Below are positions 44,336 to 50,223 of a stretch of DNA of 64,000 bases, piece after piece. The stretch's first letter is position 1, and each line of letters opens with the position of its first letter. The notes below the pieces were generated by a model that was not told where the DNA came from, made no database searches, and worked only from the letters and a program-made list of their open reading frames with translations. A program made the position numbers and the translations under genes. The DNA is from Owenia fusiformis (lineage: Eukaryota > Annelida > Polychaeta > Sabellida > Oweniidae): NCBI GenBank assembly GCA_903813345.2, contig CAIIXF020000003.1:1580109-1644108 (forward strand), in the 5' to 3' direction.

Positions 44336-44394
44336 TTTCACTACCAGGTGGTTAAATTTTTGTGTCAGATGACATATACAATACTGATTTTGAT

Positions 44395-44433
44395 CAAGGA
44401 GGTCAACCTCTGGACTGAAAACGAGCAGGATTC
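44395..44433 (+). repeat. Left 39-bp terminal inverted repeat
   Basis: Pairs with 50178-50216; preceded by TTTTGAT. Confidence 0.9.
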
Positions 44434-44473
44434 TCCAGTTTGATGTCTGATTCGGCTATGTTATTTCTCTCAT

Positions 44474-44585
44474 AGTGACGTCATAACTCTTAACCAATCA
44501 AAAAACTTTAAAGTTTCAAACTTCTATTACCGCCATATTACTCGCCCGGATGATGACCTAATTAGATTGATTTAAGATGGCGGCG
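44474..44585 (+). promoter_or_regulatory. Compact promoter-like region: CRE, CCAAT, YY1-type start context
   Basis: TGACGTCA lies at 44476-44483 and CCAATCA at 44494-44500. AAGATGGCGGCG (44574-44585) contains the ATG at 44577. TGACGTCA is the CREB/ATF palindrome, and AAGATGGCGGC is the YY1 motif that often overlaps translation starts of short-5'UTR metazoan genes. The order and the 100-base span look like a TATA-less housekeeping-type promoter. Confidence 0.55.
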
Positions 44586-46131
44586 TACAACGATGACTTT
44601 ATAACTGGCGAATTGTTTGAAGCGATATTTGATGATTTCGAAAGTGGAGAAATAGATTTGAACGAACTATATGAAGATGATAAAACAGAGAGCGACGCTG
44701 AACTATTCCAGTGCTCCAAATGCTCTAAAAAGTACAAGAAAAAGACCAGTTTAGTGAAACATATTCAGAAAAAACACCAAAACAGAAATGAAAATGAAAT
44801 TGAAAATGAAATTCCAGTTCCCAAGCCTTTAGAGAGAGATATAATAGGTACGTTGATTGCAAAAAATTCAGTACATGTGTCAGATTCACGGATGGGTAAT
44901 CAAAGTAACATTATAAGATAGACGTCCTTGGTCATTTTTGAGGGGGGGGGGTAATTTTTCTCTTTTTGCCATGTTCTAGATATCTAATTGATGTTTACCA
45001 AACAGCCGCCTCATTTTGAAAAAAATAATGTCATGCTTTCTCGACCAATGCCCCATTGTAGCTTGATGCCCTTGCTGATGTGCCACTCTGAAACAGCACA
45101 TATCATATTTCCAATAACATTGCATGTATCAGCGTTACCATACCCTGTATTTATTATAAACTTGTATCTAGAAAAAATATTATCATAAAATCATTCTATT
45201 TCCAGGTCAGCGTCCAGCAGTAGACATCAAAACGTCAAGAGCCCAGGCTGGAAGTATCCTCAAATCAACGTTTCTACAGTTGGCGAATGACAACTTGTCG
45301 AACGCTTTTCCCCCAGAGTCGAGTGGGGGTCGGGCCAATGAGGCCGCATCAAAGATTTGCAGTGCCTCAGCTAATCCAGCGAACCAGGAAACATTTGACA
45401 ACTTTGGTACAAGACTTTACGATGCGATGAGTGATGTCATCGTAAGTGGGTCCACAAAGAAGCTGGACTCATCAATGAAATATACTATGCTTCAGAATTT
45501 CCACCAAACACAAATTGACATTGAATTAAACAAAGAATTCAACCATTTCTATCAAAGTCTTGGTGTTAACTATAGTGGGAAACTACTGAGCGCCAATGTA
45601 AAATGGACTTATTTCATCAAACTCTGTGATATTCTTACTCCTTCCCAAAGTGCCAATACAGTACCAGAAATTGACTCCTCAATAACAAAAGAAGAGGAAT
45701 CCACGCTCCGATATGTGGCAGGTTTCATTCCGTTTTCTCTGATGAAGAGATATAGGCGGTTTAAAGGAGAGAAATTTGGATTGTATGTTTTGTGCCTACA
45801 AAATTGGCGGGCCAATGATGATGACATTGAGGGAGAGAGCCTCCAGGACTACACTAAAGCCTGGACTACAACTATCAATAGAGGAGGCTTATTCAAAGTC
45901 AGTGATGCTGTGTACAGTTTCTTCTATAAACTTGAGTGTGTGGTGCGGCAGCAATTAAACATTGAGACTGTGATGGCAGATATATCTGTCAATCTGAAGA
46001 AGAAACTTCACCTTGACATATCATGTAGCGATTCGGTGAAATTTGCCTGGGAGGACATTCGCTATGAACTTTTTCATATTGTTACTGCAAAATTCATCAA
46101 TCTTAGAGCAGATTCATTTGTGAAATTTTGA
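44577..46131 (+). CDS. Two-exon C2H2 zinc-finger protein with RGGL domain, 398 residues
   Basis: Exon 1 is 44577-44847 and exon 2 is 45206-46131. The 358-base intron (atag|gtacgt to tctatttccag) joins in phase 1 and leaves 399 codons including the stop. The start is the ATG in AAGATGGCGGCG. Residues 1-40 are acidic (EAIFDDFESGEIDLNELYED). A C2H2 finger follows: FQCSKCSKKYKKKTSLVKHI ending H-x4-H. A polar linker has NEIENEIPVPKPLERD. Exon 2 holds a helical domain with STLRYVAGFIPFSLMKRYRR, then KAWTTTINRGGLFKVSDAVY and SFFYKLECVVRQQL. The Y-(V/I)-AG-(F/Y) and RGGL-x-x-(V/I)-(N/S)-D words recur, from memory, in uncharacterised sponge, cnidarian and mollusc proteins, and the first recalls P-element-like C-termini. 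No break or frameshift. A DNA-binding role in the nucleus is inferred from the finger. Confidence 0.8.
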
Positions 46132-46353
46132 AAGAAACGCTTGGCATCAAAGGGCAAAGTCCATGGGAAGAGCACACAGTCTCTCAGATCTTCTCTTGCT
46201 TCCTAACTTTAAAAAATTACATGTTTTAGACTGTCATGAACTATTCAATTTAATGTACATCATCTTTAAATAGTGCACCACAAGCAAGGTAATTGCTCAG
46301 TTTAAAAGCTCTGAAATAGTTGTTCAGTACTACATGAGTACATGTATTTAAGG

Positions 46354-46522
46354 AATAAAGAATCATGTATCATTCTATATTGGAAATATAAAAGCATGAG
46401 TGCATGTACTAACCCATACGCATAATGCATGAAGGCGGAGCCTGAGTGCATTATCAGAATGGGTTTGTACATCCACGAATGCTTATATATTTCCAATATA
46501 GAATGATACATGATTCTTTATT
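46354..46522. mobile_element. Palindromic MITE, about 170 bp, 3' of the RGGL gene
   Basis: A perfect 36-base inverted pair at the ends (46354-46389 and 46487-46522, starting aataaagaatcatgtatcat), with further imperfect pairing to a centre near ggcggagcc at 46435. As RNA it would fold into one long hairpin. No target duplication recognised. Confidence 0.8.
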
Positions 46523-47432
46523 GCAATTCAAACATGACTCTGGTCAATGATGAAGTAGAACAGTTCACCATTTACATCTACAAGATTGTTGTCTCTGAGG
46601 AAATTAAATTTTAAATGTTTTTGGACAAGTCTATTATTTAGAAATACTAAATAGGGGTGTTGTGTTACAATTGATATTCGTTTGAAAACTATTGAGAAGG
46701 TTTTATTTGTCATATTACAGGAAATGAAATAACTAATTTGATGCAGAAAAATTATGAAAACTTAGTTGGAAATCATAACATTGACTGAAATGAACACACT
46801 GGTGATATGCTGTCACCCCTTTTTAAAGAACAGCCCGTGCATTTATAAAAAATTAAATGCACAGCAATATCATTTTCATGCATGTATCAATAAATTAACA
46901 CACTGAAATGCTTTAATCTGATTGGCTGAGACACACTTGGCATGTTTGAATAGCATTTATACATATTATAGACTGGTTGAAGTTGAAAATTTCATTCTAT
47001 TATCTAAATGCATATAGAAAGTTGAACTTTTTAGTCTTGTATTTTGGAATAAAATAAATATAAAATGTATTATGAATATGAGCTAAAAATGTTTAGTTTC
47101 TTGTAGCGTTCATTCATCTTTTAATGGACAATTCCCATTCTTAACAGTGAATGCACATTTTCGTAAAATTTTGACGCATTATTTACCTCCTGCTGAGACA
47201 CTGAGTCCCAATAAGTATTCCATGGAAAACAAATAGCAACTTGTTTAAAATGCAAAAAAACTAATGACCAAGAAATTGGAATTTTAATTTAAATATAGCC
47301 CATTAATAACAAGGCATGCAAGGGGGATAACAATATGGCTGGCTGCCATTTGATGTTAGAAATGTCTGAAAATGTAATCCTCGGAGGGGGGGGGGCACTT
47401 CAATGTTTGGTATCATAGGTATATATGATGTA

Positions 47433-47631
47433 CTAAGTCTCTTTTGATCTACTGATTGTGCAATAACATTGAATAATAAAAAAGTGGCAGTTCTTAAAAA
47501 CTGAAAAACCAACCCTATTGCATGGTCCATCTTTTTGTTTTGAGACTCCATGTGACTGTTTAGGTTTGTATGTGCCACTTGGGAACTCCCGCTTCTTTCT
47601 TGTCAACTTGAACTTCCTACCCATGTTTGCT
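47433..47631 (-). CDS. Opposite-strand candidate first exon inside the 5.8-kb element
   Basis: On the minus strand an acceptor (ttctcttttcag) stands four bases before an ATG. The frame reads MGRKFKLTRKKREFPSGTYK, then PKQSHGVSKQKDGP, very basic. A donor is not clear; after about 40 residues the frame turns hydrophobic and AT-rich and stops at 47433. Basic N-termini of this sort occur on Mutator-like transposases of animals, which makes it a possible transposase remnant in this element, but the evidence is thin. Confidence 0.35.
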
Positions 47632-47769
47632 GAAAAGAGAAATAATCACATAAGACTTGATTCATATTCTGTTAAATAATAACAATGAGCATTCAGTGGT
47701 AGACCAATTTTTCGATATAGGCCTAGAAAATAAAGTACTCTAAAGGTATGCAGACTTTGGCAGTCTCTC

Positions 47770-49550
47770 ATAATGCCGATGTAGGAATCAATAGGACGCA
47801 ATGTCATAACATTGGTGAATCAAAAAATATATAAACCATTTTGTCAATGGAAATTTTATTTTGAGCAATCTGCACCAATAGATGAACAGAAAACAGTTTA
47901 CTAATCTCATTTTGCACTAGTATAACCTGAGATAAATGTACGCTGGCCATGGCATTCTCTCGAAATTTCAATGCCATGGCTTGAGTTAGGTAGGTAGGTG
48001 CTCACATTGGTGATTCAAAAATTGTATTAACCTTTACAATTGTCAATTGATTTTGAAAAATCTGCAGCATTAGACCAACAGAAAACAGCCTACTTTTCTC
48101 AGTTTGCACAAAGTAAATTGAGATATAGGTACTCTGACTTTGACGTTTGCTCATAAGTTCCATGTCATGACATGATTCGATAAGAAGTAATGTCATGACA
48201 TTGGTGATACAAAAAATGCATTAACCTTTACATTTGTCAATGCAAAACTTATTTTATGAAATCTGCACCATTAGATGAACAGAAAACAGTTTACTTTTCT
48301 CAATTTGCATGAGTATAACCTGAGATATAGGTATGCTAACTTTGCTATTCTCTCATAATTTCAACGCTGCTGTAGGAATCAATAGGACGTAAGGTCATGA
48401 CATTGGTCATTCAAAAAATGCATAAACCTTTAGAATTGTCAATAGAAAACTGATTTTATGAAATCTGCACCATTAGATGAACAGAAAACAGTTTACTTTT
48501 CTCAATTTGCATGAGTATAACCTGAGATATAGGTATGCTAACTTTGCTATCCTCTCATAATTTCAACGCTGCTGTAGGAATCGATAGGACGTAATGTCAT
48601 GACATTGGTCATTCAAAAAATGCATTCACCTTTACAACTGTCAATGGAAAACTTATTTTATAAAATCTGGACCACTAGATGAACAGAAAACAGTTTACTT
48701 TTCTCAGTTTGCATGAGTATAACCTGAGATATAGGTACGCTTACTTTGGTATTCCCTCATAATTCCAATGCTGCTATAGGAATCAATAGGACGTAAGGTC
48801 ATGACATTGGTCATTCAAAAAATGCACAAACCTTTACAATTGTCAATGGAAAACTTATTTTATAAAATCTGGACCACTAGATGAACAGAAAACAGTTTAC
48901 TTTTCTCAGTTTGCATGAGTATAACCTGAGATATAGGTACGCTCACTTTGGTATTCCCTCATAATTCCAATGCTGCTATAGGAATCAATAGGACGTAATG
49001 TCATGACATTGGTCATTCAAAAAATGCACTAACCTTTACAATTGTCAATGGAAAACTTATTTTATAAAATCTGGACCACTAGATGAACAGAAAACAGTTT
49101 ACTTTTCTCAGTTTGCATGAGTATAACCTGAGATATAGGTACGCTCACTTTGGTATTCCCTCATAATTTCAACGCTGCTGTAGGAATCGATAGGCATAAG
49201 GTCATGACATTGGTCATTCAAAAAATGCATAAACCTTTAGAATTGTCAATAGAAAACTGAACCATTAGATGAACAGAAAACAGTTTACTTTTCTCAGTTT
49301 GCATGAGTATAACCTGAGATATAGGTACGCTTACTTTGGTATTCTCTCATAATTCCAGCGCTGCTGTAGGAATCAATAGGACGTAAGGTCATGACATTGG
49401 TCATTCAAAAAATGCATTAACCTTTACACTTATCAAGGGAAACATTATTTTGTGAAATCTGCACCATTAGATGAACTGAAAACAGTTTACTCTTCTCATT
49501 TTGCATATATATTACCCGAGATATGGGCACGCTAACTTTGGGAATTCTAC
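47770..49550. repeat. 202-bp satellite, nine units, inside the 5.8-kb element
   Basis: The marker cagaaaacag (or its variant) falls at 47887, 48079, 48280, 48482, 48684, 48886, 49088, 49274 and 49476. Five of the eight steps are exactly 202 bases, others 192, 201 and 186. Shared words include gtcatgacattggtcattca, ccattagatgaacagaaaac and gcatgagtataacctgagat. Middle units are the most alike and edge units the most worn, as expected for unequal crossing-over. No coding sense. Confidence 0.95.
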
Positions 49551-50177
49551 AAAATATGTGTTGACTGAAAACTTAGGGTGGGGCATGGAACTAGTATAAT
49601 TATAAAGACATTGATACTTCAGCTACTGCATATGACAGTAGCATATAATAAGTATGTATAGGAATCATGAAAATACAAATTTACATGCACTCAAGGATCA
49701 TATTACGACAAACATGTGTCGAAACATTGTCATGTTGCAAAAAAATCCCCCAAAAATCTGAAATTTTGAGCAAAATCAGTTGGTATAAAAACTATAAAGC
49801 GGCACTAAATTTGTATCAGCAGAACTCATATAACCATTCTGTTCGTTAGTTGATCTATAAATCATCTTCATTTTGCCTAAATATGGCAAAGAATGGACGA
49901 AAAATGAAAAATAAATCGAAAAAAATCGGAAAAAATCAAAGGGAGAGTTCTGGATTCTTTGGCATTTTATGGCTAATTTGTGTGGTAAATCGACTGATAC
50001 TTACTAGGATTAGTTGATATTTGTCCTTCATTTACATTTATAACACTTTTCAGGGCATATAATTAGACTTTAACTGAATAATTTTTTCATTTATGGCGGT
50101 CCACGCATAAGTAGGTCAAAGTGCGTCACTTCCGGCGAATCAGAGAACAGAATTTGTGCCATAGGAAAATTCAATGG
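49551..50177. promoter_or_regulatory. Right subterminal region of the 5.8-kb element
   Basis: No gene. Near the end, gcgtcacttccggcg (50123-50137) contains CACTTCCGG, an ETS-type site, with tatggcgg 30 bases before it. It faces the right TIR much as the CRE/CCAAT region faces the left one. Confidence 0.3.
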
Positions 50178-50216
50178 GAATCCTGCTCGTTTTCAGTCCA
50201 GAGGTTGACGTCCTTG
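50178..50216 (-). repeat. Right 39-bp terminal inverted repeat
   Basis: Inverted partner of 44395-44433; followed by TTTTGAT. Confidence 0.9.
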
Positions 50217-50223
50217 TTTTGAT

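Follow-up and report, generated by a model that had tools for sequence, protein, structure and literature searches.

The 64,000-nucleotide stretch of Owenia fusiformis DNA analysed here (contig CAIIXF020000003.1, positions 1,580,109 to 1,644,108 of the forward strand; this whole stretch is called the window) carries a complete DNA transposon of 5822 bp, bounded by terminal inverted repeats (TIRs) and a target-site duplication. Its gene encodes a C2H2 zinc finger and a domain with an RGGL motif, and from comparison with related sequences we regard the element as very probably a decaying, non-autonomous copy from a P-superfamily lineage that carries two genes. We class this lineage, with its second, C2H2/RGGL gene, as a new variant within the superfamily, and the window element as derived from it; among the literature matches listed, judged by titles and the openings of abstracts and with Repbase outside the scope, no P element with such a gene was found. 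As the window element has no transposase gene of its own, it must have moved on a transposase made elsewhere (in trans), and its filing under P rests on its TIRs, its duplication, the scars left by excision and its sister elements. The features of the element are the following.

44388-44394, strand not applicable: left copy of the 7-bp target-site duplication, TTTTGAT
44395-44433, plus strand: left TIR, 39 bp, of which the outer 16 nt (44395-44410) are the part retained in scars
44577-44847, plus strand: exon 1 of the C2H2/RGGL gene, encoding an acidic N-terminus and the C2H2 finger
44706-44777, plus strand: C2H2 finger, under the Pfam cut-off (18.8 against 25.2 bits)
44848-45205, plus strand: intron, GT...AG
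45206-46131, plus strand: exon 2 with the RGGL domain, RGGL motif at 45880-45891 and stop codon at 46129-46131
46132-46206, plus strand: former C-terminal tail past the stop, its similarity to the tail of relatives still visible
46341-46964: nested repeat with inverted arms at 46354-46436 and 46440-46522 (83 bp), outside the core of the element
47780-49541: right-end tandem array, 8.9 copies of a 202-bp unit
50178-50216, minus strand: right TIR, 39 bp, of which the outer 16 nt (50201-50216) are the part retained in scars
50217-50223, strand not applicable: right copy of the 7-bp target-site duplication, TTTTGAT

An earlier note on this DNA, made from the letters of the sequence, had described a bounded transposon with 39-bp TIRs differing at one position and TTTTGAT on both sides, and this description is confirmed (38 of 39 TIR positions are identical). 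The seventh base of the left TIR is G, while the right TIR and 26 tabulated scar ends have C. The gene had been called unbroken. Its two exons, its 398 codons plus stop and its intron hold, but the gene is not fully intact: the protein stops at FVKF where four of four aligned relatives extend further, the reading frame beyond the stop still yields a recognisable family tail, and the alignment against the same four relatives contains a gap of nine columns. Judged against these, the window copy's RGGL protein ends prematurely. The tandem array and the nested repeat are features beyond the earlier note; the latter is found also in one of the related elements (A_C2), at 83-91% identity.

The superfamily had been left unassigned, and the related elements allow it to be assigned. 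The genome searched comprised 498 Mb, and all genome-wide counts given below are lower bounds. Three relatives of the RGGL gene sit in large elements on C2, C4 and C10, whose DNA is about 97-100% identical along most of the length, and a fourth large element, on C11, has a transposase exon that is 100% identical, only the RGGL region and the tips having been compared in addition. These four elements (A_C2, A_C4, A_C10 and A_C11; 16.9-18.4 kb, two-ended) are called family A, and their TIR reads CATGGACGTATATCA(T/A)CTGGATACC. Allowing up to three mismatches, this TIR occurs at 19 genomic places, compared with one for a reversed-pattern control. Twelve of the 19 are the ends of six two-ended elements, namely family A and two members of a family B (B_C2, 5.6 kb, and B_C5, 11.1 kb), and the remaining seven comprise isolated ends, fragments and a scar. 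The TIRs of the window element and of families A and B are alike (the three types read CAAGGACGTCAACC-TCTGGA, CATGGACGTATATCATCTGGA and CATGGACCTATATCCTCTGGA): among 20,000 shuffles, the observed score was reached by none for the window and A, by one for the window and B, and by none for A and B. Perfect 7-bp duplications flank six of the seven two-ended elements, window included (TTTTGAT in the window, then GTTTCAC, CTACAAT, GTCTATG, ACCTAAG and GTTCAAT). Right-end tandem arrays lie at the corresponding place in all three families, with units of 202 bp in the window element, 221 bp in family A and 203 bp in family B. The units have no significant similarity to one another, and the idea that the arrays are copies of one sequence was rejected.

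In family A a transposase gene runs inward from the right end and the RGGL gene inward from the left, the two being convergent. Separate open frames of the former match the Pfam domains TNP-like_RNaseH_N (6e-20), GBD, the GTP-binding insertion (8.5e-8), and RNaseH_C (3.2e-6). At another locus, C7, a single open frame of 574 residues carries all three together (2e-21, 1e-21 and 4.9e-6), and it matches the Drosophila P transposase chain PDB 6p5a at 2.6e-15; the RNase H exon of family A alone gave nothing against PDB at E≤1. The N-terminal part of the RNase H domain, the GTP-binding insertion and the C-terminal part of the RNase H domain were found in family A, C7 and C9, and a motif search recovered candidates for the Asp-Asp-Glu residues together with a [C/D](2)H motif in these three and in L050. 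The first Asp of C7 lies outside the motif pattern and was taken by eye as LQDEVKVK. In all four the last recognised frame ends 63-66 residues past the candidate catalytic Glu, further 3' exons being possible; human THAP9 and the Drosophila P transposase continue for about 200-300 residues past theirs. The catalytic Glu is E613 in human THAP9 and E531 in Drosophila P (PMC8230255).

Two groups of side observations concern the transposase. The sequence L050:1-3981 belongs to a contig filed under a metagenome-assembled genome of the archaeon Nitrosopumilus, carries an animal-like P transposase with 38% identity to that of C7 and also a retroelement integrase frame (rve, 1.3e-7), and is probably eukaryotic contamination. 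Segments resembling P transposases are also found within open frames of 1189-2378 residues at L049:2864-6433 (minus strand), C331, C486 and C3:16.79M, and these differ from the split type.

The presence in family A of a P transposase with its domains and triad bears directly on the proposal that the RGGL protein itself is the catalytic transposase, here of a new superfamily making 7-bp duplications; in the earlier note, such a transposase would have defined or extended a transposon group. No other gene was recognised in the window element, and relatives of the RGGL gene lie beside the related TIRs of both families, A and B. Among five aligned RGGL members, however, the invariant acidic residues amount to a single Glu, and searches of Pfam and PDB gave no RNase H-type match for the protein; with the P-type stagger of the scars described below, this makes a catalytic RGGL protein extremely improbable. 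No Pfam family covers the C-terminal RGGL domain, and an AlphaFold prediction of exon 2 alone, from the single sequence, was unusable (mean pLDDT 36). The RGGL domain may resemble the C-terminal part of THAP9-like proteins, a likeness for which the profile search of PDB gave nothing convincing. Gene-less TIR copies moved by a known transposase had been named beforehand as evidence against the proposal, and this is in part what the group contains. Its transposase is of the P type; no RGGL match was obtained in B_C2, and the one in B_C5 is weak (46 residues, E 0.005) and lies in a stretch that is missing from B_C2 and from the family B copy on C9 and looks inserted. Both full B copies retain just the 3' end of the transposase gene. 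Family B has its RGGL gene in other, partial copies, at C9:28.67M and C8:26.6M, whose TIR is that of B, whole or truncated. The copy on C9 is adjoined by L045:132-683 (minus strand) and neighbouring frames, which by eye look like a Polinton-type DNA polymerase (one of the frames, scanned against Pfam, gave no match), and it seems to interrupt a helicase-like frame.

Further evidence for the superfamily comes from excision scars. These were sought genome-wide as a TIR tip followed by its reversed counterpart, with 0-30 free bases between them and with at least 11-12 kept bases required per end, so that shorter scars were missed. Tip-tip palindromes of this kind numbered 13 for the window family, 18 for family A and 17 for family B, while the reversed-pattern controls gave none for any of them. 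Exact 7-bp duplications flank 42 of the 48 palindromes (10 of 13, 15 of 18 and 17 of 17, respectively), compared with no exact 7-mer in 1536 displaced comparisons. The exceptions in the window family are one site with an exact 8-bp duplication and two sites with one and two mismatches. Shared flanks mark L055 and L060 (window family) and L089 and L099 (family B) as duplicates of one site each, which leaves 12 independent scar sites for the window family, nine of them with an exact 7-bp duplication. With no end left out, 94 of 96 ends keep at most 17 nt (A and B) or 16 nt (window family), and the two that exceed the maximum keep 18 nt (L078) and 23 nt (L033). The exact full form, 17+17 nt, occurs in 3 of 18 palindromes of family A and 5 of 17 of family B, and 16+16 nt in 2 of 13 of the window family. 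In all three families the limit of the kept tip falls just before TGGA, even though the TIR of the window family has one base fewer, a hint that this inner motif sets the position of the cut. The scar sequences thus point to a P-type long staggered cut. TIR patterns of 32 and 27 bases, with up to three mismatches allowed, match nothing in the genome but the window element's own two ends, and the scars escape such patterns because they keep too few bases.

That the 48 palindromes are instead tiny palindromic elements which spread by themselves is a reading we consider very improbable. Identical forms do recur, such as the full 17+17 form seen five times in family B, and three palindromes with family A tips (L070, L080 and L081) lack an exact duplication, lie in longer contexts that are shared or palindromic and resemble other palindromic repeats; L080 and L081, which have a 48-bp core in common, may belong to a separate small repeat family. 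Recurring identical palindromes nevertheless have different flanks, the two duplicated pairs excepted, and the others vary in the point of joining and in a few bases at the join. A palindrome of 22-34 bp would, moreover, lack the part of the TIR that lies inside the cut, and the limit of 17 or 16 nt is kept at nearly all ends.

The well-known superfamilies of DNA transposons differ in the duplications they make, which are 8 bp for hAT and 9 bp for Mutator, TTAA for piggyBac and TA for Tc1. Each of these four also has a transposase of its own, and neither the 7-bp duplications of the group nor its P-type transposase agree with any of them. The 7-bp length, which the earlier note had judged to fit none of the common superfamilies well, is no obstacle to the P superfamily, in which P elements make 8 bp and Galileo mostly 7 bp (PMC4168063); the duplications at the elements and at the scars fall within this range. 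Galileo is similar also in its target, with T at position 2 and A at position 6 (GTANTAC in Galileo; 66 of 96 symmetrised duplications here), and in the tandem repeats near the ends of some copies (PMC4168063, PMC3688188). It differs in a THAP-bearing transposase and very long TIRs, whereas the elements described here have short TIRs, a right-end array outside the TIR and the second, RGGL gene. The Drosophila P element shares the RNase H domain with a GTP-binding insertion, the Asp-Asp-Glu residues and the cut 17 nt inside the TIR (PMC7776569), and its 31-bp TIR is counted as a further likeness (PMC7776569). This second-strand cut, 17 bp into the TIR, is described as unusual and atypically long (PMC7776569, PMC10983969). 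Unlike the present lineage, with its 7-bp duplications, two convergent genes and, in family A, a length of about 17 kb, the Drosophila element makes an 8-bp duplication, measures 2.9 kb and encodes one transposase with THAP and C-terminal domains. Zebrafish Pdre2/THAP9 is alike in transposase type and in a TIR starting with CAT (PMC10983969), and unlike in its 13-bp TIR, 8-bp duplication and single protein with THAP and C-terminal domains. KolobokP, a two-gene DNA transposon of animals, likewise combines a transposase with a second protein (PMC9587614), but it belongs to another superfamily and its second protein is a His-Me finger nuclease.

The association between the two genes extends beyond family A. 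At least 16 RGGL loci were counted in the genome, ten at E≤1e-3 and five more from a further search (C7, C10:14.25M, C3:5.1M and two on C12). The sixteenth, C11:21.6M, stood at E 0.275 at first and was confirmed by profile (i-E 9.6e-12 among 882 open reading frames). The two on C12 resemble different parts of the C7 protein, C12:9.44M the finger part and C12:9.479M the RGGL side. Nine of the 16 loci have a transposase match within 20 kb, and seven of these pairs are convergent (the four family A copies, C7, C9:28.0M and C11:21.6M); the other two, C10:35.6M and C12:9.479M, are same-strand and degraded. The remaining seven loci have no transposase match within 20 kb (the window, C9:28.67M and C8:26.6M of family B, C4:29.12M, C10:14.25M, C3:5.1M and C12:9.44M). 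The finger that accompanies the RGGL domain lies above the Pfam cut-off in family B and C7, and a finger in C9 is possible (exon match at E 0.25). From the proximity of nine of the 16 loci to a P transposase we conclude that the RGGL protein is probably the second gene of the element, neither its catalytic transposase nor a captured host gene.

Capture of the RGGL gene from the host as a passenger, the other origin considered in the earlier note, would agree with its own intron and zinc finger, with a C-terminal domain outside Pfam, and with the degraded RGGL copy at C4:29.12M, where no TIR or transposase was found in the 3.7 kb examined and the nearest transposase match is about 246 kb away. 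The gene recurs, however, beside P transposases in four divergent lineages, once within a PIF1-helicase protein, and no clear host-gene copy was found among the 12 of 16 loci examined (all but C10:14.25M, C3:5.1M and the two on C12), so that such a capture is very hard to credit. In the viral contigs searched there were no confirmed relatives.

The helicase case, on C11, stands somewhat apart. An open frame of 1145 residues (L047:5729-9163, minus strand) joins a PIF1-like helicase (1.2e-28), the RGGL domain and a weak homeodomain match (0.025), is convergent to a P-type transposase, and may represent another kind of two-gene P element. Among the 882 open reading frames, significant RGGL matches were confined to the known RGGL genes and this helicase frame, and the P-like loci C2:15.5M and C10:18.3M had no RGGL.

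Several observations weigh against a two-gene P-superfamily lineage with the window element as its decaying member. P elements of fly, mosquito and zebrafish make 8-bp duplications (PMC1562414, PMC7776569, PMC10983969), from which the 7 bp found here depart. The window element yielded no trace of a transposase to tblastn with ten transposase peptides at E≤1, no autonomous copy with its own TIR turned up in the genome, and in a search for an empty site with the joined flanks the right flank proved to be a dispersed repeat and the left aligned poorly. In the lineage at large, no THAP domain was seen in the N-terminal frames scanned of family A, C7, C9 and L050, 5' exons being possible, and no C2H2 finger turned up when the left 5.7 kb of family A were scanned by pattern. 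A_C4 has altered tips and no duplication. No TIRs were identified in the stretches examined around the C7, C9 and C11:21.6M pairs, where C11:21.6M has one weak candidate (12 of 16 matches, 6-bp duplication), so that only family A shows two genes inside one TIR pair. Searched against PDB, the RGGL profile missed the P transposase chain, and its one match, at E 0.77, was taken as chance. For the putative part of the RGGL protein in transposition, the lack of the gene in B_C2 and the weak match in B_C5 are ambiguous, fitting action in trans and dispensability equally well.

A mechanism may nonetheless be outlined. The transposase would nick one strand exactly at the TIR end and the other 16-17 nt inside the TIR, just before the conserved TGGA; insertion would then proceed with a 7-bp stagger, and gaps left by excision would be closed by end joining. 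With less certainty, the RGGL protein might be an accessory subunit whose zinc finger binds TIR or array DNA, and might supply the C-terminal part missing from the catalytic protein. We offer, tentatively and as somewhat short of an even chance, the fuller proposal of a split P-type transposase, in which a catalytic protein without THAP and C-terminal domains would depend on the convergent C2H2/RGGL gene for both, two subunits would be needed, the arrays of roughly nucleosome-length units would serve for docking, and TGGA, not the distance from the tip, would set the cut. A docking role for the right-end arrays is plausible by analogy, since the tandem repeats in Galileo TIRs carry extra THAP binding sites (PMC3688188). 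The array words near the tips, considered as binding sites, had frequencies within those of shuffles.

On its own in the window copy, the RGGL protein would be at most a trans-acting factor or a repressor. The RGGL-only copy might survive because its protein represses in trans, in a role like that of the 66-kDa and KP proteins of Drosophila P. This would be in keeping with a zinc-finger gene that has no catalytic partner, and coding for repressors is often within the capacity of small non-autonomous P elements (PMC7776569). Yet the protein is shortened relative to all four relatives and the copy is unique, which gives no sign of upkeep by selection, and we hold this role to be unlikely.

The window family, with 13 scar sites (12 independent), one surviving full copy and no autonomous partner found with its TIR, seems nearly extinct in this genome. 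The scar series gives the P-type stagger from genome sequence alone, and a domain without a Pfam match is now tied to a transposon context. Most of what is known of P elements concerns transposons with a single multi-domain transposase. In a lineage with a convergent second gene for a C2H2/RGGL protein, catalysis and DNA recognition may lie in different proteins, and the role of the C-terminal domain would become testable. If the proposal of a split transposase is true, transposition in this lineage would require two subunits.

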